The translations under genes were made by a program, and so were the position numbers. DNA of 36,830 bases from Planctomycetota bacterium (GTDB lineage: Bacteria; Planctomycetota; Phycisphaerae; SM23-33): assembly GCA_030635145.1 (NCBI GenBank), contig DAOVZK010000017.1, forward strand, positions 1 to 36,830, read 5' to 3'. The notes under the pieces are model-generated. The model worked only from the letters and a program-made list of their open reading frames with translations, was not told the DNA's origin and did no database searches. How positions within the stretch are numbered: the stretch's first letter is position 1; each line of letters opens with the position of its first letter. Positions 441-16,802 of the stretch are shown here, piece after piece.

Positions 441-1535
441 ATGGCACGTTCAAATATTTTCGAAGCGACCGTCGAGCATTTCCTCGCCCCCATCATGCCC
501 TTCATGAAAGACGAGGCTGTCTCGGAGATCATGATAAATTCGGCTAGCGAGATTTACATCGAGCGTGACGGCGGGCTGGTCAAAACCGACGCCACTTTTG
601 AAGACGAAGCCGCGCTGCGGGCAGCTGTCAACAACGTACTGCAATACACGGGCAAACGCGTGAACGACAACAATCCGCTGATCGACTCGCGATTACCCGA
701 CGGCAGCAGGGTTCATGTTGTGCTGCCCCCGCTGTCACGCACCGGAACCTGCATGACCATCCGCAAATTTTCCAAAATCGCGTTCGACTCCAAACGGTTA
801 GTCGAGCTGGGGTCGTGGACGCCCCAAGCCATGGACTACCTGCGAGTTTGCGTACTTGCCGAGAAAAATATACTCGTGGCTGGTGGAACGTCCAGCGGAA
901 AAACCTGCCTGCTAAACGTGCTAAGCGAATTTATTCCGCACCAGCAGCGAATCGTAACGATTGAAGACTCGGCCGAGCTTGAGCTGCAGCAGTCGCACCT
1001 TATTTCTCTCGAAGGACGCCCCGCCGACAGATGGGGCAAAGGCGAAGTCACTATCGCCGACCTGTTTCGCTCGTCGCTACGGCTGCGCCCTGACAGAATC
1101 GTGATCGGCGAAGTTCGTGGCGGAGAGGCGTTGGATATGATTCAGGCGATGACCAGCGGGCACGCGGGCAGCATGTCTACCCTGCACGCCAATACCGCAA
1201 TTGATGCGCTTAACCGCCTCGAAACCCTCGCTATGATGAGCCATGTCGAACTCCCGCTCCATGCCCTGCGATCGCAAATTGCATCGGCTATTGATGTTGT
1301 GGTTCAGGTTACGCGATTTTCCGACGGGCGGCGCGGGTTAACCGAAATCGCCGAAGTCCTCCCGCTCGACAACGACGGGCATTATCAAGTTCAGATGATG
1401 TTCCAGTACGCCGTAGACGAAAAAGCGTCAGGGTCGCTGAAACCGTGCGGTAAAAAGTCGTCCTTCGCAAATGAACCGAAAATCAAGGCGATCTATAACG
1501 ACGCCGGTGAGGCAAAAAGCTGTTTCGATGGATAA
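441..1535 (+). CDS. cpaF: Short CpaF/TadA-type secretion ATPase (first of two)
   Basis: This 364-residue protein is a type II/IV secretion ATPase of the CpaF/TadA family, which powers Flp pilin polymerisation at the inner membrane. The visible motifs are DSRLPDGSRVH near residue 85, Walker A GGTSSGKT at 148-155, and a Walker B-type segment RIVIGEVRGGEALDM around 219-233 with Glu224. The ATG at 441 is preferred over the frame opening at 390 because homology to CpaF begins there and the upstream residues are low-complexity and hydrophilic. It is shorter than usual CpaF (roughly 450-500 residues) because it lacks an N-terminal extension. It opens the Tad locus, while a second ATPase with an FHA domain is encoded at 10662. 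The C-terminal 40 or so residues are not conserved-looking. Confidence 0.9.
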   Translation: MARSNIFEATVEHFLAPIMPFMKDEAVSEIMINSASEIYIERDGGLVKTDATFEDEAALRAAVNNVLQYTGKRVNDNNPLIDSRLPDGSRVHVVLPPLSRTGTCMTIRKFSKIAFDSKRLVELGSWTPQAMDYLRVCVLAEKNILVAGGTSSGKTCLLNVLSEFIPHQQRIVTIEDSAELELQQSHLISLEGRPADRWGKGEVTIADLFRSSLRLRPDRIVIGEVRGGEALDMIQAMTSGHAGSMSTLHANTAIDALNRLETLAMMSHVELPLHALRSQIASAIDVVVQVTRFSDGRRGLTEIAEVLPLDNDGHYQVQMMFQYAVDEKASGSLKPCGKKSSFANEPKIKAIYNDAGEAKSCFDG

Positions 1536-1546
1536 GTTAAGAAGGC

Positions 1547-1575: not shown

Positions 1576-1590
1576 ACACAATTGATAACC

Positions 1591-1764
1591 ATGACAAACA
1601 TCAGGAAATTCAATGCCGACGAAACCGGGCAGACCTCAATAGAGTGGGTGCTGTTGGTGGTGGCGTTTGGGCTTCCGATGGTGTACCTTGTATCTCTGTT
1701 GCTGAACTGGCTGACCGAATACTACGCGTTTTTGACGTGTCTAATCTCGCTGCCGATGAGTTAA
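1591..1764 (+). CDS. flp: Flp-type prepilin, short, with Glu5-Trp6
   Basis: This 57-residue protein has a short charged leader ending in Gly, followed by the hydrophobic segment QTSIEWVLLVVAFGLPMVYL. If cleaved after that Gly, the mature protein carries Glu at +5 and Trp at +6, close to the Glu5-Tyr6 signature of Flp pilins. The ATG at 1591 is chosen over an in-frame TTG at 1582 because it gives a typical leader. Almost nothing follows the hydrophobic helix, so it may be a minor pilin rather than the main subunit. It lies between cpaF and a second pilin-like gene. The TadV-like peptidase at 2086 is the likely processing enzyme. Confidence 0.75.
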   Translation: MTNIRKFNADETGQTSIEWVLLVVAFGLPMVYLVSLLLNWLTEYYAFLTCLISLPMS

Positions 1765-1828
1765 CGAATTGAAATTTGACCCCTGACAACCGGGGCATAG
1801 AAAACTGATAAAAAGGAAAGGTGCTTAA

Positions 1829-2041
1829 ATGGAATTGCTAAAAAAGATATCCAAGAGTCTTAAGTCGCTGCACAAAGATGAGCAAGGTGCCGACATGATC
1901 GAATATATCCTGATCATCGCCGCCATCGCTTTACCGCTGCTGGGCGTAATCATCTGGTTCTGGAAAGATATCAGCGCCTGGGTCAAGGAATCTTACGATG
2001 AAGCAAAGACCGGTGAAGGAACGAACCCCGACGATCTTTAG
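1829..2041 (+). CDS. flp: Flp pilin (Flp/Fap family), probable major subunit
   Basis: This 70-residue prepilin has a basic leader rich in Lys and Ser, then G followed by ADMIEYILIIAAIALPLLG. Cleavage after the Gly puts Glu at +5 and Tyr at +6, the canonical Flp signature. The hydrophobic helix is followed by a short charged tail (KESYDEAKTGEGTNPDDL). A good ribosome-binding site (AAGGAAAGGTG, about 1815-1825) precedes the ATG, the strongest in this part of the locus, which suits an abundant subunit. The next gene is the prepilin peptidase. Confidence 0.9.
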   Translation: MELLKKISKSLKSLHKDEQGADMIEYILIIAAIALPLLGVIIWFWKDISAWVKESYDEAKTGEGTNPDDL

Positions 2042-2085
2042 TGCATGGTGTGTGCTGAAAAAACCGCTGTGATGAAAGGCAAAAA

Positions 2086-2664
2086 ATGCCCCAGTTAGGT
2101 GCGAATCTGTGGGCGTATGTGGTGCTTGCGGTTGTCTTAACAGTCGCTTCTGTTACCGATGTGCGTTCGGGTAAAATTTACAATTGGACAACCTACCCTG
2201 CTGCGCTGATAGCATTGGTCGGGCACCTGATAATTGGTGGACTTCACGGCCGCGACGGAGCACTTGGGTTGTGGGGTTCGCTCGCCGGATTGGCCGTCGG
2301 GTTCATTCCCCTGCTGGCCGCATGGAAGGCCGGTGGTATTGGCGGTGGCGACGCAAAAATTATGGGCGTCGTGGGAGCATTGTGCGGGTGGCGGTTCGCG
2401 ATTACGTCGATGTTCTACGGATTTCTGATCGCGGCGGTGATGGCGATCATCGTGATGCTCTACAAACGCATCACCCTCAAAACGCTCCAGCGAATATTCG
2501 CGTTTGTGCTGACATTGATGGTAAAATTAAAACCAGCCGACCCGGCCACCGAGCAAAGTCCGAAAATTCCGTTCGGGCTGGCGTTGTGCATCGGAGCGGG
2601 CATCGCGCTCGTACTGGTCTGCATTTACGGCCCCAACGAAAAAATATTCCTACTTGGAATATGA
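2086..2664 (+). CDS. tadV: Prepilin peptidase, TadV/CpaA type (A24 family)
   Basis: This 192-residue polytopic membrane protein is an aspartic prepilin peptidase. It shows both A24-family catalytic aspartates: Asp25 in VTDVRSGKIYN, and Asp89 in the GxGD-type motif GIGGGDAKIM. Hydrophobic segments lie at about 9-23, 40-52, 62-80, 100-124 and 172-188. Like other TadV/CpaA enzymes it lacks the N-terminal methyltransferase domain of PilD. It would process the two Flp prepilins immediately upstream and the TadE-like proteins. A purine-rich site (AAAGGC) sits just before the ATG. Confidence 0.9.
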   Translation: MPQLGANLWAYVVLAVVLTVASVTDVRSGKIYNWTTYPAALIALVGHLIIGGLHGRDGALGLWGSLAGLAVGFIPLLAAWKAGGIGGGDAKIMGVVGALCGWRFAITSMFYGFLIAAVMAIIVMLYKRITLKTLQRIFAFVLTLMVKLKPADPATEQSPKIPFGLALCIGAGIALVLVCIYGPNEKIFLLGI

Positions 2665-2689
2665 ACCGCAAATAAAGAACAAAGTACAC

Positions 2690-3601
2690 ATGAGCAATCC
2701 AAAACCAAAATCTCATCCGAGCAAAGCCACGCCGCTATGCGTGGGATGCATTGCTGGTGTGGTTGGTTTGTGCGTTATTCTTTCGGGAATTTTTCTCGGT
2801 AGCGGCGGACAGATGGATGGATTTTCGCGGGTGCTGAGCAGCTCGCAGTTTCGATTGTTCATGTATGTCGGATTGGGTTCTGTTTTGGGATTCGCGATTA
2901 TGACCGCCATGCTGGTTTACCTTGGAGCAGGGCGTAAGCTGAAAAATCAGGATGGCACAGCAATTATCGAGTTTGCGCTCGTGCTACCGTTTTTGCTGGG
3001 AATGATACTGCTGATGGCCCAGTCGTCGTTGCTGATGGGCGGGTATCTCAGCGTCAACTACGCCAGCTTTTGTGCCGCCCGCGCAGCCATTGTGCAAATC
3101 CCTCGCGAAACCAACAGCGAACTGCTGAACACTGTCAACGACTACGACGACCCCGAAGCTTCGGGAAAATTGTGGAACATCAAAGCCGCCGCCGTCTGGG
3201 GCGTAACGCCCGTATCACCGGGCACGCTGACGCCTCCGTCCGCTCAGGGCCAAGTCTTGCGCGACGGGCTGGAACGTTTTTTTGAGGTTAACAACGCCCC
3301 AGTCCCATGGTGGGTCAACGATCAGCTGGAATCGCGTTTGTCCTACGCCGAGGAAAACACATTCGTCTCGCTTGTACCACCGAAAAACGGTAATGTATAT
3401 CAAGAGCGTGAAGACATCACCGTCACGGTCAGATACAACATCTATCTCTCCGTGCCGTACGCATCGCGATTGCTGGCGGCGTTGGACAGCGACAATTCCA
3501 TCGACCTTGGCGACGGGCGATACGCATTGACGGTGCAGGTTCCGTGCACGCTGACAAACGAAGGCGTCGACGACAAAATCACGATAGAAACTTTCGATTA
3601 A
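2690..3601 (+). CDS. TadE-like protein with an extra two-TM N-terminal region
   Basis: The 303-residue product contains a TadE-type segment, GTAIIEFALVLPFLLGMILL, starting near residue 89 with Glu at +5 after a Gly. TadE/TadF pseudopilins normally begin with this segment. Here it is preceded by two hydrophobic helices (about 19-36 and 55-78), so the segment forms a third membrane helix. The remainder, about 180 residues, should be extracytoplasmic. The ATG at 2690 is chosen, but a TTG at 2654 overlapping the end of tadV is possible. If the Gly were cleaved by TadV, the first two helices would be lost. Position within the operon supports a minor pilus component. Confidence 0.7.
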   Translation: MSNPKPKSHPSKATPLCVGCIAGVVGLCVILSGIFLGSGGQMDGFSRVLSSSQFRLFMYVGLGSVLGFAIMTAMLVYLGAGRKLKNQDGTAIIEFALVLPFLLGMILLMAQSSLLMGGYLSVNYASFCAARAAIVQIPRETNSELLNTVNDYDDPEASGKLWNIKAAAVWGVTPVSPGTLTPPSAQGQVLRDGLERFFEVNNAPVPWWVNDQLESRLSYAEENTFVSLVPPKNGNVYQEREDITVTVRYNIYLSVPYASRLLAALDSDNSIDLGDGRYALTVQVPCTLTNEGVDDKITIETFD

Positions 3602-3633
3602 TTCCAACTCACTCATGAAACACGGATGAATAA

Positions 3634-6363
3634 ATGACTGAAAATTCACACAACACAGCTGCGGGTTTGAAACCCGGTGACAAAATCGGGCGATACGAAA
3701 TTCGCGAGCTGCTCGGTATCGGCGGGCAGGCGGTGGTTTACAAATGTTTCGACCCCGAGCTGCAACGATTCGTCGCCGTCAAGCACATTTCCACGCACCT
3801 CATAAACGATGCGGGATACCTCGATCAGATCCGCCAGAACATCCGCAACCTCGCCTCGCTCGGTTCAAAAAGCGAAGCCATCGTCGACGTATACGATATC
3901 ATCGACAACACCGACGGACTTTTTTACGTGATGGAGTTCGTCGAAGGCGACACGCTCGAAACACTATTGCGACAGGCCGACGGGCCGGTCGAAAACAAGG
4001 CTGTGCTGCTGATTCTTTTCCGCCTGGCCGCCGCACTGCACGACATTCACTCCGCCGGGATCGTCCATCGCGACATGAAACCCAGCAATATCATTCTAAC
4101 CGAAGGGCTGCGACCGAAAATTATCGACTTCGGCGTGGCAACACTCGCCGGTGGCGATGCCTCAATGCCGCTGGCGACGACAAAATACATCGCGCCAGAA
4201 ATTTACGCGGGCGGAACAATTGACGGGCGAGCCGATCTCTACGCCGTGGGTTTCATGGCGTATGAAATGCTCATCGGCCGCGAAAAATTCAACGAAATCT
4301 TCGCCGACATCACCCGCGACAAGCACAGCGAAACGCTCCGCTGGATGAAGTGGCACGGCAACAATGCGGTGACCGCACCAGAGCTGCATCTGGTTAACCC
4401 AAACGTTCCGGAAAGTCTCTCCGCTCTTATCGCCAGGATGATCGCGAAAGACCCCGACAAGCGATTCGCCAATGCCGAAGAGTTCGGCCGAGCCATCCGC
4501 TCCGATTTTTCGCCCAAGGGCGCAAAGCAATCTGCCTCGCAGCAAGCGGCCTCTGCCCTGCTCGACGAAGCTATGGAACTCCGCGTAAAAACGGTCGTGG
4601 CGGCCCCGGCACTGGGTGCCCCGCGGCAAAGATCGCTGCAGAGCGACGACACCCCCACCGCCCCACTGCCCAAAGGCCCCATGACGCCGCGTACCAAACG
4701 AATGCTGATCGGTGTTGGAATCGCGGCGATTTTCCTGATACTCGTCGGTGGTGGTGTGCTGATTTACTCGGCATCGCAGTCGGCCAGGGCCCGTGCGCAG
4801 TCGGCCGACAAAATCTACAGTGAAGGAATCCGATTTTTCAAAAATCGCCAGTACGCCCAAGCCTCCAAACAGTTCAGCATACTCACCAGCAAACACAAGG
4901 AAACCATTCAGGGTAAAAAATCCCGAGTTCTGCTGCCTATGTGCAAGGAATACATCGCAATTCAAAACGCCAAGTGGAATCAGGCGGTAAATTACGAAGA
5001 CCAAGCCTCCGAAACGATACGACAACTGCAAACCCAGACAAGCGACGAGAAATTCACTAGCTGGTTAAACGACCGCAGCACGGATATCGAAAATTTAAGC
5101 CAGGCACGCTACAGTTCCCGGTTTTACGCAGAGGCCATGCAGGATGCTCGGTCCGAATTAAAGAGGGCCGAGTCGGAATCTGACTTCGACGAAGTTTTTC
5201 AGAAGCTGAAAAGTCAACTCAACAACAGCAGCATAACTCTGACCGACCAGCAGTCGGAATTGGCCGCGACGATGCTGCAACATATCCAGAGCGAGAGGTT
5301 GCAATACCTTTTCGCCGCAGAACTGAAAGAGGGTGACCTCGCCCTGCAAAAAGACGATCTTGCCGATGCCGAAATCAAATTCAACAACGCAAATGCCATA
5401 CTCACCAGCGGCCGCAAAGAAGTTAAGTTTCTTCCCCTTGACAAGAAGGCCGAAATGCGCAGCGAGATTGAAGATCGGCAGACGCAGCTGATCAACCGGC
5501 AGAAAAACAAGGAAGTTTACAACGCTATCCGCACCGCCGAAAAGCAAGGCGACAGCACCGCGTTGATTATCGCCTTAAAAGACGCATTAAAACTCAAGAC
5601 GCTATCCAAACATGAGCGTAACCTAATGAACGCGCGTTTGGTTGAGATTCAAACCGGCGAAAAGTTGACATTTGCGAAGCAGCTTATTGCTGGAGGCAAT
5701 GTCGCGGGAGCACGCGATGCGATCAACGATGTATTGAAAATGAATCCCGACAGCAACGAGGCCAAAAAGTTGAGCGTTGCTCTTGATAATGCAGAAAAAA
5801 GAGCGGAGTTGGTTGCCAAGGCAAAAATTCAGGCTGATCAGGGAAATTACAACGAGGCGCTAAATCTGTATCAGATGGGGGCCAAGTATGGCGAGGATGA
5901 CGAAATCCAAACACAAATTGTCGAATGCAAATTCAATATTGTGATGGCCAACGCCTTAGAATTGCAAAACAAAGGCGAATATGACAAGGCGGAAGAGGCC
6001 TACATTCAGGCCAAAACCATCAAGCCTGCCAGTGCCGCACGAGTCGAAACGAGTTTGATGATGCTAAAGACCCAACGCGAATATGACGCTTACATCGCCA
6101 AGGGCAACAAGGCGATCAAGGAGCAAAAATGGTCTGACGCCATCAAGATGTTTGAACAGGCGAAAAAACTCCAGGACGACAAAAACGTTCAAGGCAGAAT
6201 TGAGTTGGCAAAATACCTGCAACATATTGATTTGGGCAAAAAGGCCTTAGACAGGAACGATCTCCCAGCCGCGAGGTGGCGATTCCGTATGGCGAGAAAA
6301 AACAAGGACACGCAGGAGGCCCGCGACCTCATCAAAAAAGCCGGTGGGGATTTGGATGACTAA
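3634..6363 (+). CDS. Transmembrane Hanks-type Ser/Thr protein kinase with TPR-like C-terminal region
   Basis: This 909-residue protein starts with a kinase domain (about 20-290). It has the glycine loop GIGGQAVVYK (28-37), Lys50 in VAVKHI, the catalytic loop HRDMKPSN with Asp147, DFG with Asp165, APE (YIAPEIYAG) and the DLYAVGFMAYEML helix. All residues needed for catalysis are present. A Pro/Thr-rich linker, a TM helix (about 357-378) and some 530 residues of helical, Lys/Asp/Ala-rich TPR-like repeats follow (for example DKAEEAYIQAKTIKPAS). The kinase should be cytoplasmic and the repeats periplasmic. It is embedded among Tad genes, and FHA proteins encoded downstream could read its phosphothreonines. 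The repeat region might also stand in for the TPR lipoprotein TadD, which I do not see. Confidence 0.9.
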   Translation: MTENSHNTAAGLKPGDKIGRYEIRELLGIGGQAVVYKCFDPELQRFVAVKHISTHLINDAGYLDQIRQNIRNLASLGSKSEAIVDVYDIIDNTDGLFYVMEFVEGDTLETLLRQADGPVENKAVLLILFRLAAALHDIHSAGIVHRDMKPSNIILTEGLRPKIIDFGVATLAGGDASMPLATTKYIAPEIYAGGTIDGRADLYAVGFMAYEMLIGREKFNEIFADITRDKHSETLRWMKWHGNNAVTAPELHLVNPNVPESLSALIARMIAKDPDKRFANAEEFGRAIRSDFSPKGAKQSASQQAASALLDEAMELRVKTVVAAPALGAPRQRSLQSDDTPTAPLPKGPMTPRTKRMLIGVGIAAIFLILVGGGVLIYSASQSARARAQSADKIYSEGIRFFKNRQYAQASKQFSILTSKHKETIQGKKSRVLLPMCKEYIAIQNAKWNQAVNYEDQASETIRQLQTQTSDEKFTSWLNDRSTDIENLSQARYSSRFYAEAMQDARSELKRAESESDFDEVFQKLKSQLNNSSITLTDQQSELAATMLQHIQSERLQYLFAAELKEGDLALQKDDLADAEIKFNNANAILTSGRKEVKFLPLDKKAEMRSEIEDRQTQLINRQKNKEVYNAIRTAEKQGDSTALIIALKDALKLKTLSKHERNLMNARLVEIQTGEKLTFAKQLIAGGNVAGARDAINDVLKMNPDSNEAKKLSVALDNAEKRAELVAKAKIQADQGNYNEALNLYQMGAKYGEDDEIQTQIVECKFNIVMANALELQNKGEYDKAEEAYIQAKTIKPASAARVETSLMMLKTQREYDAYIAKGNKAIKEQKWSDAIKMFEQAKKLQDDKNVQGRIELAKYLQHIDLGKKALDRNDLPAARWRFRMARKNKDTQEARDLIKKAGGDLDD

Positions 6364-6411
6364 CAAACAACCTGTTCACCGCTCAGAGTTACATTGAGTA
6401 AACCGCAAAAA

Positions 6412-8421
6412 ATGATTTCCAACCGACAGCGATATTCCGGGCGAATTTTTCCCCGCGCAATTGCGAGATATTCTCGCGGTGCGGTGCTTGTGGTGATGCT
6501 CATTTCCATCACACTGCTGGTGGGGTTGGTTTTTTTCGTTTACAATTACGGTGATCATGTCAGCTCTCGCCTCGAAATGCAAAATACCGCCGACTCAGCC
6601 GCCATCAGCGGCGCCGGATGGGTCGCTCGCAGCATGAATGTGGTGGCGATGAACAACATAGGACAATCGAAGCTGTTGTCGCTTGTCGTAACGCTCGACG
6701 CCCTACCGCTGGGCACCGACATGTCGCTGATTGAAACAAGAGCGATGGAGGCAGCGATTACCGATCAGCTACCGCGATTGCGAAATGAGAATCTCGGGGG
6801 CACGAAGCTCAAAACAATGATCATCGGCGGTTTGGAATCGCTGCAGCGGCGCGTAGCCGCCGAGCGGATAATTCTCGAAGCGATGGACGAACAGCTCAAT
6901 CACAGTTCGTTTGAGATGTCGTCCATTACTCATTGGCGGGACGGAAAATTATGGGAAGCGATCTACGCACTCGACGAATTCAGTACAGCAACGCTGCTGT
7001 CGGTCGGCCAATTGACACAGGATATCAGTTCAGATGTAGGGCAAGCCAATAACGCCGACATCGCCTTCGTAATTCCAATCGTTCCCCAAATCCCCCATCG
7101 CGCCGGTGAATTTGCAGACTTCAAACCCACGCTCGAAGGTAGCATAATCGTCACCAGCACCAACGCCACCGACTATAGCGTCAAGGACGGATTAGGGGGT
7201 GTGATCCCCGATGGGAATTATCCATATCGTCTCGGGCCGTGGGCAAAACTGCACCATTGGTGGTGGTCGGTCCGGGCCGGGGGTAAGCTAGTCAGACGCC
7301 CCGGTTCGCAGGTGCGTTCTGTCAGCGGTGGGCCTTCTGGCGGCGGCGCTGGAACATCCGCGGTGACGCAGTCGGCCGGTTGGGACTGGAACCCTCCACC
7401 GCGAGTTATCGGATACAGCCCCTTCGGATTTTACCACTGGGCAATTGCAATGATCGACAAATGGGCAGAAATCAACGTCCCCGATATATCCTTTGCCTCT
7501 CATGTGCATAACATCGCCAATATCAAGCTGGACTACATGTTCGGCGATCGCCCGGTTACGCTGCAAAAGGTGCACTATCCCGAATTTATCATCGACTACC
7601 TGACTATCCGCAATAAAATGAATGCCCGCCCCCCATCAGTGAGTGTCTACCGCACGCATTTTTTCCTTGTCGAAGTCGTGTCAAGCCTTCCGCCAAGCAA
7701 CTCGAACTGGTTATCCGCAGGAGTTGCCCGCAGCAACGCCCACGACCCAATAACGGTTAAACTTCACGGCTGGAGCGACCCGGCGACATGGAACGGATTT
7801 ACCCAGGTTGGCAATTACGTATGGCGGGGAGATTTCGAGTACGAAGTTACCGAAGATCGCGGCCTCGGGCTGCTGCCCAAGCACGAAGACCCCGACGATC
7901 CCAGCAGCCCGCTGGTATGGCATAAAGTTTACCGGACGCAGTTCTATATTTTTGCCGGTGCCGATATCGGAACAACCACCACCGTATCCAATCCCTGCAG
8001 CTACGACGGGCTTGACGGTTTACCCGCTCCGTATCTCCTCGACACCGAAGCCCAAGATTACACCATCTATCGCGACGAAGGGATGCGGCGAGACATGTTT
8101 ACGTATCTCGGAGTCGCTACTCGCAGCAGAACCTCTCGCGTCTGGGGCCAACGGTTTGTCACGGGGAATCCCAGCGGTATGATAACCACGATCGCGCAGG
8201 TGGAAATCTTCAACAACAAAAGCTGGGACCTGTGGACGCAGGACTGGCAGGCAAAATTAGTGCCGGTAACCAATTGGAGCGACTGGATCGACAAGTTCGA
8301 CGAGGGAATCGGGCAAGCCGATTTCGCCGAGGGGAGATTAGACGCCACTGAACTGCAAATTATACGCGATTATCTGGATTCAATCGATCCGGACTTCGCC
8401 GAAACGTTTTTGAACCATTGA
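6412..8421 (+). CDS. TadG-like (Flp pilus assembly) membrane protein
   Basis: This protein of 669 residues has one N-terminal hydrophobic helix (RGAVLVVMLISITLLVGLVF, near residue 22 onward). It is followed by the TadG-like motif RLEMQNTADSAAISGAGWVA and then a long extracytoplasmic region rich in Trp, Pro, Gly and aromatic residues. In TadG proteins this layout anchors the protein in the inner membrane with the bulk in the periplasm. The ATG at 6412 is used; a TTG at 6394 in frame would add six residues and neither has a strong ribosome-binding site. It sits between the kinase and a TadE-like gene. The C-terminal 500 residues are not recognised. Confidence 0.7.
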   Translation: MISNRQRYSGRIFPRAIARYSRGAVLVVMLISITLLVGLVFFVYNYGDHVSSRLEMQNTADSAAISGAGWVARSMNVVAMNNIGQSKLLSLVVTLDALPLGTDMSLIETRAMEAAITDQLPRLRNENLGGTKLKTMIIGGLESLQRRVAAERIILEAMDEQLNHSSFEMSSITHWRDGKLWEAIYALDEFSTATLLSVGQLTQDISSDVGQANNADIAFVIPIVPQIPHRAGEFADFKPTLEGSIIVTSTNATDYSVKDGLGGVIPDGNYPYRLGPWAKLHHWWWSVRAGGKLVRRPGSQVRSVSGGPSGGGAGTSAVTQSAGWDWNPPPRVIGYSPFGFYHWAIAMIDKWAEINVPDISFASHVHNIANIKLDYMFGDRPVTLQKVHYPEFIIDYLTIRNKMNARPPSVSVYRTHFFLVEVVSSLPPSNSNWLSAGVARSNAHDPITVKLHGWSDPATWNGFTQVGNYVWRGDFEYEVTEDRGLGLLPKHEDPDDPSSPLVWHKVYRTQFYIFAGADIGTTTTVSNPCSYDGLDGLPAPYLLDTEAQDYTIYRDEGMRRDMFTYLGVATRSRTSRVWGQRFVTGNPSGMITTIAQVEIFNNKSWDLWTQDWQAKLVPVTNWSDWIDKFDEGIGQADFAEGRLDATELQIIRDYLDSIDPDFAETFLNH

Positions 8422-8430
8422 CGTAAAACT

Positions 8431-8588
8431 CGAAATGCGAATATCTAAATCCTAAACAAGCACGAAATTGGAATTATCAAAATCTAAAACGACGGTAGCT
8501 GGTGAATAAACTTTCTTGTCTTTGTTTTGAAAATTAGAATTTTGAAATTCGATATTGTTTAGTATTTAGAATTTCGTTATTCGCATTT
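8431..8588. repeat. AT-rich palindromic element, copy 1
   Basis: This is a long imperfect inverted repeat. The left arm (from about 8431, ATGCGAATATCTAAATCCTA and onward) matches the reverse complement of the right arm (about 8525-8588, with GTTTAGTATTTAGAATTTCG). Its vocabulary (CTAAATCCTAAACAA, GAATTTTGAAATT) matches the element at 29603-29757, so the two are copies of one family. It lies between the TadG-like and TadE-like genes. No coding frame fits. Confidence 0.7.
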
Positions 8589-8607
8589 TGTGTATGAGCA
8601 TAAAAAC

Positions 8608-9219
8608 ATGATTTACCATACTACATCTCATCGCACCGCGAATCGCGGAACAGCGTTGCTGGAGTTTATCATCTGCATTCCGTTGATGGCGGTGCTGATC
8701 GCGGGGATATTTTTTTTCGGGTGGGTCATGCGAAATCAGCAGCGCATGCGAATAGCCGACCGCTACGCGTCTTGGAAAAGCGTTCACAGCAGCACACCGT
8801 CAACGCAGGACATTAACGAGCAATTTTTCGCCGACCGCGGAGACAACATACAGCTGGACTTCGACACCGAAACATCTACGCGTCAGGTTCGCTATAAGTT
8901 CGTCGAGGCGTTCAGCGACAGCTCAGCCGGGCTTTACGTGCAGAATCTCGTCGACAAGAATCTACCCGGTGGTAGCCACGTTTTTCTGGAGTCGGAGTTC
9001 ACCACGAACAATGCACGGTGGCGACAATGGGCAGAGTCCGGGGGGCTGCAACATTCGCACGTCCGCGACGGTAGATACTGGATCCGTGGCGAAACGCAAA
9101 TGCCACTTTCGATTCGCGACATATACCTCCATGAGCTGGACGATTTCGTTACCGGTTTCCCCACGCAGGCCTCCACAGGCGCTGATCTTATCCAATCGCT
9201 TTATCTCGGCGGGTGGTAA
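8608..9219 (+). CDS. tadE: TadE-like pseudopilin
   Basis: This 203-residue protein carries the TadE signature near its N-terminus: G followed by TALLEFIICIPLMAVLIAG, with Glu at +5 after the Gly. A single hydrophobic helix and an extracytoplasmic domain of about 150 residues follow. TadE and TadF are pseudopilins processed by TadV and needed for Flp pilus assembly. The ATG at 8608 is chosen; a GTG at 8590 is also in frame. The upstream space is occupied by a palindromic repeat, so its ribosome-binding site is poor. Confidence 0.75.
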   Translation: MIYHTTSHRTANRGTALLEFIICIPLMAVLIAGIFFFGWVMRNQQRMRIADRYASWKSVHSSTPSTQDINEQFFADRGDNIQLDFDTETSTRQVRYKFVEAFSDSSAGLYVQNLVDKNLPGGSHVFLESEFTTNNARWRQWAESGGLQHSHVRDGRYWIRGETQMPLSIRDIYLHELDDFVTGFPTQASTGADLIQSLYLGGW

Positions 9220-9221
9220 CC

Positions 9222-9827
9222 ATGCCGAAACGCCCCGTCAAAATAATCGCCCTGCTTTTGCTATTGCTGACAACCAGCGGTTTTGCAGTGTGGGAAATTC
9301 TGGTGTTCGTGCAAAACACCCGCGTAAAAACTCGCGGAAGTACCCTGCTGGTGGACAATCGCGGTGAGGTTTTGCGGGGTAGTGGCCGCGGTGAGACAAA
9401 AAAAAACATGGAGCTTCTGCAAAACTTGATCGGTTCGGACGATTTGTTTTACGAAATTTCTGCTGCTCCCCCAGCTACCCCGCCCAAAGGGGCAAAACTA
9501 ATCCGCGCCGTCGGTAGAAACTCGCCCCGTAAAGGATACGTTCAGCTGCAATGGGCCTACGAAATTACCGACGACGAAAAAAGCATAACCAAACATTACG
9601 CAAAGGCCTTGCAGCAGCAAGGTTTTACGCTGCGAGACCAGAAACGAAAAGCTCCGCGTCTGGGAATGGTTTTTCATAGATATCCGTCGCTCGTAACGCT
9701 ATCCTTAAGACTCGCGACGGTGAAAAGCTTGATGCTCGTGACGGTTTGCGAAAATCGCCCCGCGGATGGCATAGTTTTTTCAACTAAAACCGCCACAAAA
9801 CCGAATAATAAGGATGATGATAGATAA
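9222..9827 (+). CDS. Membrane-anchored hypothetical protein in the Tad locus
   Basis: This 201-residue protein begins with KRPVKIIALLLLLLTTSGF, a signal peptide or signal anchor with no lipobox. A domain of about 165 residues without a family I recognise follows. The ATG at 9222 lies 2 bases after the stop of the TadE-like gene, so the two are translationally close. Mid-protein segments (VGRNSPRKGYVQLQWAYEI, near 105-123) suggest a small alpha/beta periplasmic domain. By position it is probably a pilus accessory protein; it does not resemble CpaD or a secretin. Confidence 0.6.
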   Translation: MPKRPVKIIALLLLLLTTSGFAVWEILVFVQNTRVKTRGSTLLVDNRGEVLRGSGRGETKKNMELLQNLIGSDDLFYEISAAPPATPPKGAKLIRAVGRNSPRKGYVQLQWAYEITDDEKSITKHYAKALQQQGFTLRDQKRKAPRLGMVFHRYPSLVTLSLRLATVKSLMLVTVCENRPADGIVFSTKTATKPNNKDDDR

Positions 9828-9877
9828 TAAACCCGAAAAACCCGGGAATCTCGGGTTACAAACAGGCGAGGTTTGCG

Positions 9878-10657
9878 ATGGCTGAAAGTAAACGGGAATT
9901 GCAGGGTAAGTGGTTGCTGTTAATCGCTGTTGTACTGGGCGTGATTGTTGTGCTTATATACAATGCACATATTTACGCCTTGCGCAGTGCGCAGGAGGGC
10001 GAAAAAGTCGCCGTCGCCATTGTGCTGCGAAAACTTCAACCCGGCGACAAGATCGACAAAAACGACATCGGCAAGCAGGAAATTCCGCGCAACATCACCA
10101 AGCGTTTCGGTGACGTCATTAAGTATGACGAACGTGGCACGGCGATGGGCAAGCGTCTGCTGTACGCCGCCGACAAGGGTTCGTTTCTCAAATGGTCGCA
10201 GATCAACCCCAGCCACAAAATTTCTCCGTCGGCGAGACTGAGGCGAGGGTACGTTGGTAAGCCCGTGACTTTTTCGTCGGACGAATCACTGGGCGATCTG
10301 CTGACGGTCGGGTCGGTGGTGAATATGCTGGGGCAATTTTCGATCAACGGCGGACGTTACGAGTATTATCCGATAATGAAGGTTCGTGTGCTGAACATCG
10401 GCGGTAAGGGTGGGGCAGACACAACATTTAACCCGCTGGGTAAGGGCATGAAAAGTTACCGCCGCATGACCATTGAAGTTCCCGAGGATGTCTCGCTGAA
10501 ACTTTCGAATTTGCGGACGCACATGATCGGCGACGTCCAGATCGACCTCTGCCCGCAGGACACCCAACCGGCCGACGAGATCAACCGCGAGCTTGACGCA
10601 CTTACAAAACAGGCTCGCCCGAACCAGCAAACCACTCCCACCATCCCAGGAGAATAA
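9878..10657 (+). CDS. cpaB: CpaB/RcpC-like Flp pilus assembly protein (SAF domain)
   Basis: This 259-residue protein has an N-terminal TM helix (about 12-29). It is followed by the CpaB-type SAF region: VAIVLRKLQPGDKIDKNDIG (about 46-65), then GTAMGKRLLYAADKGSFLKW. A second region with GYVGKPVTFSSDESLGDLL and VGSVVNML corresponds to the RcpC/CpaB C-terminal part. CpaB proteins act in the periplasm with the outer-membrane secretin in Flp pilus biogenesis. The stop is four bases before the TTG start of the FHA-CpaF gene, and the 3' end carries that gene's ribosome-binding site. A small GC hairpin (about 9838-9857) lies upstream. Confidence 0.85.
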   Translation: MAESKRELQGKWLLLIAVVLGVIVVLIYNAHIYALRSAQEGEKVAVAIVLRKLQPGDKIDKNDIGKQEIPRNITKRFGDVIKYDERGTAMGKRLLYAADKGSFLKWSQINPSHKISPSARLRRGYVGKPVTFSSDESLGDLLTVGSVVNMLGQFSINGGRYEYYPIMKVRVLNIGGKGGADTTFNPLGKGMKSYRRMTIEVPEDVSLKLSNLRTHMIGDVQIDLCPQDTQPADEINRELDALTKQARPNQQTTPTIPGE

Positions 10658-10664
10658 CACCTTG
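10648..10664 (+). promoter_or_regulatory. Ribosome-binding site that fixes a TTG start
   Basis: AGGAG at 10648-10652 lies nine bases before the TTG at 10662-10664. It makes that TTG a much better start than an earlier in-frame ATG at 10593, which would lie inside cpaB and add 23 residues ahead of the FHA domain. The site overlaps the last codons of cpaB, so translation of the two genes is probably coupled. Confidence 0.75.
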
Positions 10665-12536
10665 GAAATTTGGGCCTACAATCAATACAACGATCAACGC
10701 GAAGTTCAGACCGTCAACGACGAGAACGTGACCATCGGGCGTGATGACGGCAATGATATTACGCTGAAGTCGCAGTTCGTTTCGAGAAAGCATGCGCGGA
10801 TCGTATTTGAAAACGGTAGCTATTTTGCCGAATCGCTCGGGCTTAACGGCATCGTCGTAGCCAATCGCAGCGTGCCCGTAAAAACTCGCGTAAAAATCGG
10901 ATACGGCGACGAAATCCGAATCGGCGAATTCAGCATCTACATGATGAAGCCGTCATCCAAACGCGTCGAAGGCAGCACACACGTGTCGTCACCACGTAAA
11001 CGCGTTGTCGAAATCGAACAGCAAATGCACGCCGAACTGCTTGAACGCCTGAACTTGCGAGTAACGGGGCAAACCGGCGAAATCGATGAGCAACTGGTGA
11101 TGTTGGTCAAGCGGCACTTAAGCGAAATTATCAAATCGCACATGGACGAGATCGACGACGAGATGCGCAAGTATCTGCTGCAGGAATTTCTCTGGCGGTC
11201 GGTAGTGACGGAGCTGGCGCGGCGGTCGACGGGCAAGCTGATGTACAGCTACGGTTTCGAGCATGTCGGTAAAGACGACAACAAGCTCGAAAAAACCATT
11301 GCCCGCATCATCGGCGACATCGTGGGATTCTTCCCCCTGCAGCTGCGGCCGCACACGTTCAAAGACGACATCGCCCTGATCGAAAAAGACTGGGACTCGC
11401 AGCTGAAAAAAACCACCGCTCACATTTCCCCGGAACTTCGCGACTATATCGTCTACCGCCTGCTGAGCAACGAAATCGAAGACGTCGTACTAGGTTACGG
11501 CCCGCTGCAGGACCTGCTCGAAATGCCCAACATCTCCGAAATCATGGTCGTCGGAAAAGACCGTATCTACATAGAGAAGGACGGGGTGCTGCAGAACACC
11601 GGGCGTAGCTTCTTCAGCGACCGAATCGTCGAGAGCATCATCGAGCGAATCATCAATCCTGTCGGCCGACGAATCGACAGGTCGACCCCGATGGTCGACG
11701 CCCGCTTACCGGACGGTTCGCGCGTCAACGCCGTCATCAACCCCATAAGCCTATCCGGGGCCACACTGACTATCCGCAAGTTCGCGCAGATTCCGTTTAC
11801 CATCGACGATCTCATCGAACGCGGCACACTGAACGAAAAGTCGGCGAATTTTTTGCGGGCCTGTGCCCTGGGGCGAAAAAACATGCTCATTTCCGGTGGA
11901 ACCGGCAGCGGAAAAACCACCACGCTCAACGTGCTGGGCAATTTCATTCCCGAGGGTGAGCGTGTGGTAACCATCGAAGACTCCGCCGAACTCCAGCTGC
12001 AACATGAACACCTCGTGCGTCTGGAAACCCGCCCCGCCAACATCGAAGGTAAAGGTGCATACACCATTCGCGAGCTGGTGAAAAACGCTCTGCGTATGCG
12101 GCCGGACCGGTTAATCGTGGGCGAAGTTCGCGGCCCCGAGGCGCTGGACATGCTGCAGGCGATGAACACCGGGCACGATGGGTCGCTGAGTACGATCCAC
12201 GCGAATAATCCCGACGACACGATGCTGCGATTGGAAACGATGGTGCTGATGGCCGTCGACATGCCGATTCGGGCGATACGCGAACAGATGGTCGCAGCTA
12301 TCGACCTGGTCGTGCAAATTTCTCGCATGCCCAACGGCCGACGCTGCATAACGCATATCAGCGAGGTATGCGGCATCGACCCAGAGGACGGACGAATCGT
12401 TATCGAGGATATTTTCGTGGCGAAACCAAAAACCGACGAAGATGATCTTGGCGAACTGAAACACACCGGGTACATCCCGCCGTTTACCGAAGAACTCATC
12501 CGCAAAGGATACATGGACATCGGAGTGTTTACATGA
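10662..12536 (+). CDS. cpaF: FHA-domain fused CpaF/TadA secretion ATPase
   Basis: This 624-residue protein joins an N-terminal FHA domain (about 1-100) to a full CpaF ATPase. The FHA part keeps the phosphothreonine-binding features: Gly26-Arg27 (TIGRDDGNDITL), Ser41-Arg-Lys-His44 and Asn62-Gly63. The ATPase part shows ARLPDGSRVNAV, Walker A GGTGSGKTTT from Gly412 with Lys418, and RLIVGEVRGPEALDML with Glu488. It should energise pilus assembly with TadB and TadC, encoded next. The FHA module could let the membrane kinase at 3634, or a phosphoprotein, control it. It has the consensus Walker A, whereas the first CpaF in the locus has GGTSSGKT. It overlaps tadB by four bases (ATGA). Confidence 0.93.
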   Translation: MEIWAYNQYNDQREVQTVNDENVTIGRDDGNDITLKSQFVSRKHARIVFENGSYFAESLGLNGIVVANRSVPVKTRVKIGYGDEIRIGEFSIYMMKPSSKRVEGSTHVSSPRKRVVEIEQQMHAELLERLNLRVTGQTGEIDEQLVMLVKRHLSEIIKSHMDEIDDEMRKYLLQEFLWRSVVTELARRSTGKLMYSYGFEHVGKDDNKLEKTIARIIGDIVGFFPLQLRPHTFKDDIALIEKDWDSQLKKTTAHISPELRDYIVYRLLSNEIEDVVLGYGPLQDLLEMPNISEIMVVGKDRIYIEKDGVLQNTGRSFFSDRIVESIIERIINPVGRRIDRSTPMVDARLPDGSRVNAVINPISLSGATLTIRKFAQIPFTIDDLIERGTLNEKSANFLRACALGRKNMLISGGTGSGKTTTLNVLGNFIPEGERVVTIEDSAELQLQHEHLVRLETRPANIEGKGAYTIRELVKNALRMRPDRLIVGEVRGPEALDMLQAMNTGHDGSLSTIHANNPDDTMLRLETMVLMAVDMPIRAIREQMVAAIDLVVQISRMPNGRRCITHISEVCGIDPEDGRIVIEDIFVAKPKTDEDDLGELKHTGYIPPFTEELIRKGYMDIGVFT

Positions 12537-13402
12537 TTCTGAGCGAAATGTCACATTCGTCGCAGCTTCTGGTTAACAGCGTTTTTATTTTTATCGCTGC
12601 CGCCACTGCAGTCTGGCTGGGGTATAATCCGCTACGAAAATTGCTCCTCCGGCGAGAGGCGTTTTACAAACATGTGCTGTGCAACACGCTGCTGCTGGAA
12701 ATTCACCCGCGAGTCGTCACCGTGCTGACCGTTATGGTGATGATTCTGCTGGCCGCCGTGGCCTTCGCCCTGCTCGACGGAAGCTTAATCGCAACCCTGC
12801 TGGGGGCGGTGGTCGGTTTTGTTTTACCGCACACGATAGTGAATCTGCTTCGCAGGCGGCGGTTAGAAAAACTCGAGTCGCAGCTAGTGGGTACCATTCA
12901 GACGCTGGCATCGGGTGTGCGAGCGGGATTGAACTTAGTGCAAGCGATGGAGATGGTCGCCCGCGACGGCCCCGTCCCGACGAATCAGGAATTCCGCCAC
13001 ATGCTGCGGGAATACGAATACGGTGTTCCGCTGGACGACGCCATGATCAAAGCCTCGACGCGAATCGGCTCGGGTGATTTTACGCTGCTGTTTACCGCAC
13101 TGGAAACCCACCGCCAACGCGGGGGCAACCTCGGCATGACACTCGACCGCATCGCCGACAGCATCCGCGAAATCCAACGGCTGGAAAATCGCGTCGACAC
13201 CCTGACCGCCCAAGGCAGGGCAACGGCACGATGGTTAGGCGCCATGCCAGCTGTCGTAATGTGCATCCTGTACCTCATTGACCCCAGCGGAGTGCGAACC
13301 ATGTTCAGCACCGGCGCGGGAAAAATTATCGTCATGACCATTATCGGACTGAACATTATCGGGTTCGCGTGGATCCGAAAAATTGTAACTATTGATATTT
13401 AA
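12533..13402 (+). CDS. tadB: TadB-like Flp pilus inner-membrane platform protein
   Basis: This 289-residue protein has the T2SSF/TadB layout. There are N-terminal hydrophobic helices (about 11-26, 57-80 and 83-101), a cytoplasmic T2SSF domain with TLASGVRAGLNLVQAMEMVA (about 124-143) and GNLGMTLDRIADSIREIQRL, and C-terminal helices (about 238-252 and 262-281). It is expected to form the inner-membrane platform with TadC, moved by the CpaF ATPase. The ATG overlaps the FHA-CpaF stop as ATGA. Confidence 0.88.
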   Translation: MILSEMSHSSQLLVNSVFIFIAAATAVWLGYNPLRKLLLRREAFYKHVLCNTLLLEIHPRVVTVLTVMVMILLAAVAFALLDGSLIATLLGAVVGFVLPHTIVNLLRRRRLEKLESQLVGTIQTLASGVRAGLNLVQAMEMVARDGPVPTNQEFRHMLREYEYGVPLDDAMIKASTRIGSGDFTLLFTALETHRQRGGNLGMTLDRIADSIREIQRLENRVDTLTAQGRATARWLGAMPAVVMCILYLIDPSGVRTMFSTGAGKIIVMTIIGLNIIGFAWIRKIVTIDI

Positions 13403-13407
13403 GAATG

Positions 13408-13543
13408 GACTAGGCAATAGGAAATAGGTACTAGTGCCTGATTATTTAAGAGCTGTCAGTTATCAGATTTCAGTCGGCAGTAAGAAATTTTGAATCTGTT
13501 TCTTACTCTTGCTGATAGCTGATAACTGACAACTGAAAACTTT
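13408..13543. repeat. Intergenic inverted-repeat element between tadB and tadC
   Basis: A CTAGG-type repeat (about 13408-13436, sharing GGACTAGGCAATAG with the 1547-1575 region) is followed by a long imperfect palindrome. The left arm GTCAGTTATCAG (13455-13466) pairs with CTGATAACTGAC (13519-13530), and CAGTAAGAAA with TTTCTTACT flanks the centre near 13488-13504. The transcript could fold into a large hairpin separating tadB from tadC, which are usually adjacent. It is probably a MITE-like insertion. Confidence 0.65.
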
Positions 13544-13548
13544 AAGAA

Positions 13549-14502
13549 ATGACAAACTCAATCACAACCATTTTGGCGGCGGACATGACAGGCGGATTCT
13601 GGGACATCCTGATCTCGGTGTTGTTGTTTGCGATGGTGTTTATGGTGATAATTTCGGTGTTTTCCGCGCGGGGCAGCGTAACACTTTCACCGCAACGGGC
13701 CGCGGCGATTGCGACGGGACACACCGACCGCAAAACCATTTTCGAGAATCCGATTTTTCGCCCGGTCATGTGGATTTTCCTCTCGATAGCCTTTAGCTTG
13801 CGATTACCGGGCACGAAAAAGTTCATCAAGGATAAAATCATCGCCGCTGGGTCGCCAAACTACTACACATCCGAAGAGTACTTGGCGTTATCGATGCTGG
13901 CGGGGTTTGGGCTGGGAGTGGTATTGATGATCGGGCGATTCATCGTAGCGGGCGACTTTACGCTGCTGGGATTAGTCGCGGGATTTGTTGTCGGGGTCGC
14001 GCTTTCGATTTACCAGCTTACCGACAAGGCCTCAACGCGTTTGATGAAAATCACCAAGCAGCTCCCATACGCCATCGACCTAATCGCCCTTGCCATGGGC
14101 TCCGGTGCCACATTCACCGAGGCCGTCAAAACCATCACCCGCCCCACCAACGACGACGAAGACGATCCGCTGAAAGTCGAACTGCGTGCGTTGCTAGCCG
14201 AGATCGACCTCGGTACGCCCCGCCGCGAAGCACTGATAAGCATGACCAACCGCGCACCGCTGGAATCGATCCGCGGGTTAGTCGCCTCGGTCACCCAGGC
14301 CGAGGAACTTGGCACGCCGCTGGAAAAAGTTTTGCACGACCAAGCGACATTAATGCGAATGCATCGGTCGGTACGGGCAGAAAACAAAGCCGCCGTCGCC
14401 AGCGTGCGAATTCTCATCCCATGCCTGCTGCTTGTAGTGGCGGTGATGTTGGGAATTTTCGGCCCGGCGATTATCCGAACTATGCAGGAGGGGTTGTTCT
14501 AA
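13549..14502 (+). CDS. tadC: TadC-like Flp pilus inner-membrane platform protein
   Basis: This 317-residue protein is a T2SSF/TadC family member. It has an N-terminal hydrophobic helix (about 14-38), a central pair (about 114-131 and 135-153), the cytoplasmic motif QLPYAIDLIALAMGSGATFT (about 173-192) with EAVKTI after it, and EELGTPLEKVLHDQATLMRM. A C-terminal TM helix (about 288-308) ends the protein. It would pair with TadB as the platform for the CpaF motor. The start is the ATG at 13549, with only a weak AAGAA-like site in the repeat-derived leader. The stop overlaps the next start as TAATG. Confidence 0.87.
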   Translation: MTNSITTILAADMTGGFWDILISVLLFAMVFMVIISVFSARGSVTLSPQRAAAIATGHTDRKTIFENPIFRPVMWIFLSIAFSLRLPGTKKFIKDKIIAAGSPNYYTSEEYLALSMLAGFGLGVVLMIGRFIVAGDFTLLGLVAGFVVGVALSIYQLTDKASTRLMKITKQLPYAIDLIALAMGSGATFTEAVKTITRPTNDDEDDPLKVELRALLAEIDLGTPRREALISMTNRAPLESIRGLVASVTQAEELGTPLEKVLHDQATLMRMHRSVRAENKAAVASVRILIPCLLLVVAVMLGIFGPAIIRTMQEGLF

Positions 14503-15617
14503 TGCCCAGCGTTCGGCCGATAGTGTATTTCGTTTCCGGCCCACAAAAGGCACGGCAGTTCCCACTGCTGGATAACGTGGTAATCGCGGGACGTCAAAAA
14601 AACGTTGCAATCCCGCTGACGGAGCAGTACGTTTCGCGACAGCAGCTGAAATTTGAACTTACCATAGACGGATGGATCGTCGAAAACCTGTCGGCCTCGG
14701 CGCAAATGCGGGTAAACGACAAAAATTTCAAACCCGGTAAGCAAATTCTGCTGACGACCGGAGACTGCATTTTTGTCGGAACCGAAACAAAAATGCTGTT
14801 CGCAGAATCGGGCGATGATCTCGACGAGGCGGTGAAGAATTTCTATCATAAAAATCCCAGCAGCACCGCAAAAAAGCCCGCCTCAAAAAAAACATCCGAA
14901 AAACCCAAGCCCACCGAGAAAAAACCCTCCCGCTTTAAGATTCTTCGCGGAAAGCTAAACAAGACAAACCACACGAAAGCAAAACCGCATCTGCAGGATG
15001 AAGCCGATCTTTCACCCGAGCAGCTTGAGCAACTCGAACGCAAAAAGAAGATCCGAAAATACACCATCGCCGGTGGAGTTTATCTTCTTGCGATGATCGT
15101 GCTGGTGATTGTGTTAGCGGTCTTCAAAAACGATGGCCCCGCAGAATCCGGCGGCAAACCGCCACAGCTGACTAAAAAGCAGATTGTAGATGCCATATCT
15201 TCGGAATTAAGCGCATCGCCCAACAAAATCGCCGCCCAAGGCGCCTGCAACGAAGCCCGGGTGCTCTATAACAATCGTAACGCCGACGAGCAAAACCTCT
15301 ACCTGTGTGTCAGAAACTATCGGATGTTCCAGGCACTACGGCCGAAAACCAGACGAGCCTTCAAACCGACCGACGAAATCAATTTCTATCGGGCGAAAAA
15401 AGATCTCGTCGAAAAAATCAAAGAAGCCTACGAAAAAGCAATCATTCGTGAAAATCAACAAAATTGGGTAGAAGCGTTAAGAGCCTTCGACTACGTTCTG
15501 CGGATCGTTCCGCCAAACAACGACGACCCCGAAGTCGAGAAGGTAATCGTCGAAAATGTCCGCCAGCACACAAGGTACATCGGCCGCATGATGGAGAAGC
15601 AGAAAAAGCGGCGGTAG
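14502..15617 (+). CDS. Membrane-anchored FHA-domain protein ending the Tad locus
   Basis: This 371-residue protein has an N-terminal FHA-like domain (about 5-95). It shows Gly30-Arg31 and the SRQQ motif at 45-48, where canonical FHA has SxxH, so a key structural His is replaced by Gln. A Lys/Pro-rich linker (about 125-175), a TM helix (about 187-209) and a helical C-terminal domain of about 160 residues follow. The topology puts FHA in the cytoplasm and the helical part outside. The ATG at 14502 shares a base with the tadC stop, so translation is coupled. It may recruit phosphorylated partners, or use its degenerate FHA only for protein contacts. The C-terminal domain is not recognised. Confidence 0.75.
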   Translation: MPSVRPIVYFVSGPQKARQFPLLDNVVIAGRQKNVAIPLTEQYVSRQQLKFELTIDGWIVENLSASAQMRVNDKNFKPGKQILLTTGDCIFVGTETKMLFAESGDDLDEAVKNFYHKNPSSTAKKPASKKTSEKPKPTEKKPSRFKILRGKLNKTNHTKAKPHLQDEADLSPEQLEQLERKKKIRKYTIAGGVYLLAMIVLVIVLAVFKNDGPAESGGKPPQLTKKQIVDAISSELSASPNKIAAQGACNEARVLYNNRNADEQNLYLCVRNYRMFQALRPKTRRAFKPTDEINFYRAKKDLVEKIKEAYEKAIIRENQQNWVEALRAFDYVLRIVPPNNDDPEVEKVIVENVRQHTRYIGRMMEKQKKRR

Positions 15618-15833: not shown

Positions 15834-16802
15834 TTACTTCCCAAGCAAAAATGCGTCGTCGTCGGGGGTAAACACTACCGGGTCTTTGGGAAGTTTTTCG
15901 ATATCGAATTTTTGCAGCAGCGTCGGCAGGTCGATTTCGTCGCGTTTTTCCAAGGCTCCCGACCAGAACCCCAGCAGCCCGAGCATTCGCTGCGGGGCGA
16001 CCCCGGCCTCAATATACGTCGTAATTTTCGTATCACCATGCCGCTTGGCGAGCTTACGCCCGTCGGGGCCAATCACCAGCGGTAAATGCCAATACTCCAT
16101 CTTGCCCACCAATCCCAACAGCCGTCGCAAATGAATCTGAATCGCCGCCGACAGCAACAAATCGTCGCCCCGCACAACCACATTCACGCCCGCGTCGTAA
16201 TCGTCTACGGTAACGGCCAGCTGATACGCCGCCAGCCCCTGCGAGCGGAAAACCACAAAGTCCCCGCACGTCTCCAGCAGATTAAACGATTGTGGCCCGG
16301 CGAATCCATCCTCGAACTCGACGGGGTTGTCCCGCACTCGCACCCGCCACGCCACCGGCCGATCGGTACGATGCTCGGCATGTGAGGCGTTTTTGAATCG
16401 CCCGCGGCATGTACCTTGATAGACGACGTAATTTTCTCCGGAAAATTCATCCGCTGTCGGTGCCGACGCGGCGGCTTCGACTTCTTTCCGCGTGCACGTA
16501 CATGGATACGCGGCATGTTCGGCAGCCAGCGACTTTAAGGCCGACTCGTAAATCTCGCTACGATCCGACTGCACAAGAATGTCGCCTTCCCAATCCAGGC
16601 CCAGCCATGCAAGCTCATCGATGGCCTGCTTGTCGGCACCGGGCTTAACTCGCGGCCCGTCGAGGTCCTCCATGCGAAACAGAATCTTCCACCCCCGCTG
16701 CTTAGCCAACAGCCAATTCAACAGAAACGTGCGGGCATTACCAAGGTGAAGCGAACCCGTCGGAGACGGTGCCAATCGTGTTGTAGGTTTTTTTAATAAC
16801 AT
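15834..16802 (-). CDS. gluQ: Glutamyl-Q tRNA(Asp) synthetase
   Basis: This 322-residue protein resembles the catalytic half of glutamyl-tRNA synthetase without the anticodon-binding domain. That matches GluQ-RS, which charges glutamate onto queuosine in tRNA-Asp. Visible motifs are APSPTGSLHLGNAR (the HIGH-type motif, His19) and KLAKRHGD (the KMSKS equivalent). A zinc site is formed by Cys101, Cys103, Tyr128 and Cys132 (YPCTC, VVYQGTC), a feature of this family. It is monocistronic, with no close neighbour on its strand. Confidence 0.85.
   Translation of the reverse strand: MLLKKPTTRLAPSPTGSLHLGNARTFLLNWLLAKQRGWKILFRMEDLDGPRVKPGADKQAIDELAWLGLDWEGDILVQSDRSEIYESALKSLAAEHAAYPCTCTRKEVEAAASAPTADEFSGENYVVYQGTCRGRFKNASHAEHRTDRPVAWRVRVRDNPVEFEDGFAGPQSFNLLETCGDFVVFRSQGLAAYQLAVTVDDYDAGVNVVVRGDDLLLSAAIQIHLRRLLGLVGKMEYWHLPLVIGPDGRKLAKRHGDTKITTYIEAGVAPQRMLGLLGFWSGALEKRDEIDLPTLLQKFDIEKLPKDPVVFTPDDDAFLLGK

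Follow-up and report, generated by a model that had tools for sequence, protein, structure and literature searches.

A Tad pilus operon of a Planctomycetota bacterium with its own transmembrane Ser/Thr kinase, two FHA proteins and two CpaF motors

Gene content of the locus

The stretch of DNA analysed here (the window; 36,830 nucleotides) is an entire contig (C52) of a Planctomycetota bacterium whose genome, G000, measures 2.38 Mb and is 93% complete. One compact series of genes on the + strand, running from 441 to 15617, constitutes a Tad pilus operon (Table 1). Its genes, several of which touch or overlap, follow in the order CpaF1, two Flp-like pilins, CpaA, a TadE-like protein, a kinase, a TadG-like protein, a TadE-like protein, an unknown protein, CpaB, FHA-CpaF2, TadB, TadC and FHA2. 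What can be read directly is thus a transmembrane Ser/Thr kinase, two FHA proteins and two CpaF motors in a fixed order, together with an invariant T-x-x-[LIVM]-P motif close to the membrane segment of the kinase. Several hallmarks of a Tad system are present: a Flp pilin (a weak match, under its cut-off), a prepilin peptidase, TadE/TadG pseudopilins, CpaF with the TadB-TadC pair and CpaB/RcpC. CpaE/TadZ and TadD were not seen in the window, and the TadZ_N profile was silent in every control genome as well. A preliminary description had rightly placed the kinase between pilin/peptidase and TadG/TadE genes (2086-3601 on one side, 6394-9219 on the other). The span given there, 3634-15617, is however too short: upstream of it, from about 441 on, the operon also includes the genes for a further CpaF, both Flp-like pilins, the prepilin peptidase and a TadE-like protein. 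Promoter and terminator scans performed no better than on shuffled sequence. CpaF2 most likely starts at the TTG at 10662, judging from the AGGAG upstream of it.

Table 1. Coordinates of the Tad operon and its features in the window.
Feature	Position	Strand	Evidence and remarks
CpaF1, second Tad motor ATPase without FHA	441..1535	+	T2SSE 2e-60; open reading frame open from 390, ATG at 441
Walker A GGTSSGKT and RPDRIVIGEVR in CpaF1	within 441..1535	+	Read from sequence
Small Flp-like pilin, 57 aa	1591..1764	+	Pfam: none; tblastn orthologues at equivalent place in 19 loci
Flp pilin	1829..2041	+	Flp_Fap 2.8e-06, under its cut-off; orthologues in 20 loci (tblastn)
CpaA prepilin peptidase	2086..2664	+	Peptidase_A24 1.2e-16
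TadE-like pseudopilin	2654..3601	+	TadE 2.9e-06; likely start ATG 2690
Transmembrane Ser/Thr kinase (kinase, linker, transmembrane segment, TPR), 909 aa	3634..6363	+	Pkinase 1.5e-44
Thr342 codon, candidate phosphothreonine docking site in TAPLP	4657..4659	+	Invariant 27/27 in poorly conserved linker
Extracytoplasmic TPR-like alpha-solenoid of the kinase	4780..6360	+	AlphaFold2 mean pLDDT 93.1, all helical
TadG-like pseudopilin/adhesin	6394..8421	+	PF13400 Tad 5.9e-08
TadE-like pseudopilin	8590..9219	+	TadE 1.5e-06
Unknown protein, N-terminal transmembrane segment, fast-evolving	9213..9827	+	Pfam/NCBIfam: none; tblastn: 4 close relatives only
CpaB/RcpC	9878..10657	+	pilus_cpaB TIGR03177 5.3e-07, under cut-off; SAF 7.1e-04; conserved in 23 loci
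CpaF2, FHA-fused Tad motor ATPase	10662..12536	+	FHA 1.6e-14, T2SSE 1.3e-60; open reading frame open from 10593
FHA domain of CpaF2	10728..10925	+	Pocket R50, S64, H67, N85 (numbering from 10593, the start of the open reading frame); aligns to GarA
TadB platform protein	12533..13402	+	T2SSF 2.3e-19
TadC platform protein	13549..14502	+	T2SSF 8.3e-16
FHA2 (FHA, linker, transmembrane segment, extracytoplasmic helical domain)	14502..15617	+	FHA 1.8e-05, Yop-YscD_cpl 7.2e-09; start inside tadC stop codon

Conservation of the kinase and its linker motif

Tad loci were taken from relatives of graded distance and typed with profiles built from the window family. Within the class, 27 FHA-CpaF loci lie on stretches that span both the CpaA and the TadG sides. 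All 27 carry the kinase between these two sides, against none of nine ordinary Tad loci (CpaF without FHA) of the same class (Fisher p = 1e-8; the genomes are related, so that the p-value is only indicative). Conservation of the kinase with FHA-type tad genes had been set beforehand as a refutation test, which the association passed, and the earlier statement that ordinary Tad loci have no kinase is borne out within the class. Four of the nine ordinary loci sit in genomes that also carry a kinase-type locus; both types are found side by side in G019, G025, G035 and G038. Chance adjacency of kinase and tad genes is ruled out by these counts, and a chance arrangement is likewise rejected because families f1, f2, f3, f11, f12, f16 and f17 of the class share the gene order. 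Two apparent counter-examples (L031 in G030 and L228 in G256) were dismissed: in both genomes the locus is split and the kinase lies elsewhere, and in G030 it is still joined to the CpaF1-to-TadE half.

An unrelated kinase, of the housekeeping or PASTA type, might have ended up in the operon by chance, given that the genomes hold several Ser/Thr kinases each and that the best NCBIfam match is the generic PknB_PASTA model (below its cut-off). We regard this explanation as extremely improbable and largely refuted: the position is the same in 27/27 loci from several families, the gene is absent from the nine ordinary loci and retained even where a kinase-type locus is split, and its ectodomain is TPR-like and helical rather than PASTA.

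The kinase consists of a Pkinase domain, a linker of ~70 residues, one transmembrane segment (about residues 357-379) and an extracytoplasmic part with TPR matches. Its closest solved kinase is PknB (1.4e-30). K50, D147, N152 and D165 (the VAIK Lys, HRD Asp, Asn and DFG Asp) do not vary among the 24 orthologues covering these positions. The extracytoplasmic region, described earlier as TPR-like, is confidently predicted to form a continuous helical solenoid (AlphaFold2 from 22 sequences, mean pLDDT 93.1). Searching the PDB with this fold yields generic TPR proteins as best matches at low global TM-scores, and therefore no ligand is suggested. PADLOC kinase matches, which would point to a defence system, were dismissed as generic kinase similarity.

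Little is conserved in the linker that joins the kinase domain to the membrane segment: across 49 well-filled columns, the top residue has a median frequency of 0.37. Thr342 is the sole invariant column among these 49 (27/27). It is followed by mostly Ala and mostly Pro, then by Leu, Ile, Val or Met in 27/27 and by Pro346 in 26/27. T-x-x-[LIVM] is present in 38/38 orthologues (the 27, ten class kinase loci of f16/f17, and G030), a set that takes in the kinase-bearing members of L221-L231 as well as L260. Among the other transmembrane kinases of the same genomes it occurs in 1 of 22 (Fisher 6e-14, to be taken as indicative only since the rows are related). The selectivity of FHA domains lies at the third residue following phosphothreonine (pThr) (PMC5549992, PMC3953482). 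Judged by its residues, T-x-x-[LIVM]-P has the form read by FHA domains (aliphatic at pThr+3), which makes Thr342 a specific candidate docking site, putatively phosphorylated by the kinase and read by an FHA domain.

The kinase could also be active mainly on other targets (TadG, TadB/C, CpaF1 or transcription factors), with TAPLP as a non-phospho docking motif or a membrane-proximal structural motif and the FHA domains reading pThr elsewhere. The proline-rich TAPLPK indeed resembles short docking motifs as well, and one locus (L058) keeps T-x-x-L without the Pro. We nonetheless consider this explanation unlikely, since the Thr is invariant while its flanks drift, the +3 residue is always aliphatic or Met, and the motif is specific to these kinases.

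FHA readers, motors and a possible phospho-switch

Both FHA proteins of the preliminary description were recovered: one domain with the pThr-binding residues is fused to the CpaF2 motor, and a second protein, FHA2, follows tadC and is anchored by one transmembrane helix. Of three FHA domains detected across the G000 genome, the Tad locus thereby accounts for two. The model of FHA2 comprises an FHA fold, a disordered linker, the transmembrane helix and a helical outer domain. The FHA domain of CpaF2 has the full Gly-Arg, Ser, His and Asn pocket in the window, whereas part of the pocket is gone in FHA2 (Gly-Arg and Ser kept, His replaced by Gln, Asn lost). A similar division is seen throughout f1, f2, f3 and f12: the CpaF2 pocket is full with a single Asn exception (L038), and FHA2 keeps Gly-Arg and Ser, mostly without Asn. 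R and S of FHA2 are retained in 24/24 of the window-type alignment. In f11 both pockets look intact. The situation is reversed in f16/f17, where FHA2 is canonical and the CpaF2 domain has Ala for Ser in most cases and Ser or Ala for Asn.

In class loci with both FHA domains readable, at least one of them keeps the phosphate contacts R and S. This see-saw, which is a pattern over ~40 related loci and not a test, suggests that each locus retains one good reader, which need not be the one on the motor. Docking of pThr at the motor, as originally proposed, is consequently no universal rule, because the CpaF2 FHA lacks part of its pocket in f16/f17; the FHA2 pocket, in turn, is partial in the window lineage.

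Descriptions of Tad systems usually mention one CpaF only. Two are found in 26/27 class loci with both ends covered, and in a maximum-likelihood tree CpaF1, FHA-CpaF and canonical CpaF form separate groups (support 100/100, 100/94 and 100/99). Both CpaFs of the window carry intact Walker motifs, and the closest solved structure of the CpaF2 motor is CpaF (5.7e-103). The two CpaF clades are ancient and occur across the phylum.

The channel through the outer membrane has no obvious counterpart in the operon. A CpaC/RcpA secretin is missing from the window locus and was not detectable in any kinase locus of the class (L031-L061), as opposed to 8/9 ordinary Tad loci of the same class (L062-L070). 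The G000 genome encodes three secretins outside the Tad locus. One of them is an unusual protein of 1128 aa with an N-terminal TPR region, whose neighbours are without Pfam matches (L080:4104-7487, on contig C37 of G000); we put it forward as a candidate outer-membrane channel for this pilus.

With slightly better than even confidence we propose that these loci represent a distinct, vertically conserved Tad subtype with its own pThr/FHA signalling unit. The TPR solenoid would read an extracytoplasmic cue and activate the kinase, which would then autophosphorylate Thr342. An FHA reader would be recruited by pThr342, most likely the FHA of CpaF2 in the window lineage and FHA2 in f16/f17, and its docking would gate how the motor beneath the membrane assembles or works, in parallel with the recruitment of FhaA by the phosphorylated juxtamembrane region of PknB. 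Caulobacter CpaF without its N-terminal extension shows lowered retraction (PMC11300603), and the FHA of CpaF2 is located at this same end. By analogy, the N-terminal end of CpaF is a plausible lever for motor control. A bolder version, in which the kinase picks the motor, would have CpaF1 and FHA-CpaF2 dedicated to separate, possibly opposite tasks (extension and retraction), with docking of CpaF2 on pThr342 as the gear shift; we rate it as quite unlikely. If true, one Tad system would separate two jobs that are done by a single CpaF in Caulobacter. More generally, the identical arrangement of these genes in dozens of relatives suggests that protein phosphorylation switches the filament motors of this group.

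Several observations weigh against this relay. The kinase had been called complete-looking, which holds for K50, D147 and D165, but the alpha-C Glu (equivalent to PknB Glu59) is Asn69 in the window. Of the 24 orthologues, 15 retain Glu at this position; in the remaining 9 it is replaced, by Asn or Thr in the clade nearest to the window and by Val in a second clade. In f16/f17 the phosphate-contact Ser of the CpaF2 FHA is mostly lost though Thr342 persists. No PP2C phosphatase was found in the G000 genome (PF00481 and PF13672; controls positive). Outside the class, about half of the sampled FHA-CpaF loci show no kinase, and where one is present its position differs and the juxtamembrane motif is missing. 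Often this is a different transmembrane kinase downstream of tadC (e.g. L232, L234, L235, L238 and L240). Compared by gene content, the tie between kinase and FHA-CpaF is therefore strict for this locus type within the class, and recurrent but loose outside it, given 27/27 against about half without a kinase.

Two side observations concern these kinases and the G000 genome. Several of the downstream kinases just listed have HGD replacing HRD in the catalytic loop, and L234 has TVALP. G000 encodes three Hanks kinases above cut-off and three FHA domains, yet no PP2C was found.

The chief alternative on mechanism is a scaffold independent of phosphate, with a kinase domain that has evolved in the direction of a pseudokinase and FHA domains that associate with it or with one another in the unphosphorylated state. 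This explanation stays alive because the alpha-C Glu is missing, both in the window clade and in the second clade. Pocket decay in one or other FHA fits it too, and there is a precedent in T7SSb (type VII secretion system b), where EssC FHA domains bind the EssB pseudokinase domain (PMC11217815). We hold it to be quite improbable nonetheless: K50, the HRD Asp, Asn152 and the DFG Asp remain invariant (24/24), the one invariant linker residue is specifically Thr, and all class lineages examined have at least one FHA with R and S retained.

Two further genes of the window lie outside the operon. A short glutamyl-tRNA-synthetase-like protein (15834-16802, 322 aa) is found beside the Tad locus in the relatives L035, L037 and L039 too, and 34607-36496 encodes an amino acid permease that carries a fused PTS EIIA_2 domain.

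Comparison with known systems

The FHA-CpaF fusion pointed out in the preliminary description is already known, both as class III CpaF, described mostly from betaproteobacteria (PMC12019362), and as KilF (PMC8460266). CpaF2 shares with class III the N-terminal FHA, linker and CpaF core as defined there. The difference lies in its surroundings: the accessible portion of the class III report mentions no kinase, whereas the operon of the window includes a conserved kinase as well as another FHA protein and another CpaF (PMC12019362). The Tad-like Kil system of Myxococcus xanthus likewise combines an FHA-fused CpaF (KilF) with several further FHA proteins, and a signalling cascade has been guessed at, with no kinase named in the main text. 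Kil however encodes a single ATPase and a short secretin (KilC), against two CpaFs and no secretin in the window locus (PMC8460266). Searches of the open-licence PMC literature turned up no account of a Tad locus that contains a kinase. What sets the window locus apart is the conserved company of a kinase, a further FHA protein and a further CpaF, and not FHA-CpaF itself.

Parallels for the signalling part are found in other systems. T7SSd and T7SSe also encode a transmembrane Ser/Thr kinase with a helical ectodomain together with an FHA-bearing motor ATPase, and phospho-control has been proposed for them; their ATPase is of the FtsK type, however, and they are secretion systems of Gram-positive bacteria rather than pilus motors (PMC11217815). 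In the PpkA-TssL-Fha pathway of the type VI secretion system (T6SS), a membrane kinase places pThr on a membrane component and an FHA reader activates the machine, a switch that requires R and S of the FHA domain. There, Fha is separate from the ATPase and the phosphatase PppA is encoded alongside (PMC3953482), in contrast to the window genome, where none was found. PknB resembles the proposed mechanism in its linker: pThr beside the transmembrane segment recruits the FHA protein FhaA, the phosphorylated juxtamembrane form (pJM-PknB) binding FhaA (cited in PMC12077195). PknB differs in its PASTA ectodomain, its cell-wall role and a reader that is not a motor.

How a single Tad motor turns from extension to retraction, and whether this is regulated at all, is an open question (PMC11300603). 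The conserved operon described here unites a sensor kinase, two motors (one of them with an FHA domain) and a candidate phosphosite that never varies, and with it phospho-control of a pilus motor can be tested directly. If the proposed relay is true, pili would join the machines (T6SS and some T7SS) in which a kinase-FHA relay operates or is presumed to operate.

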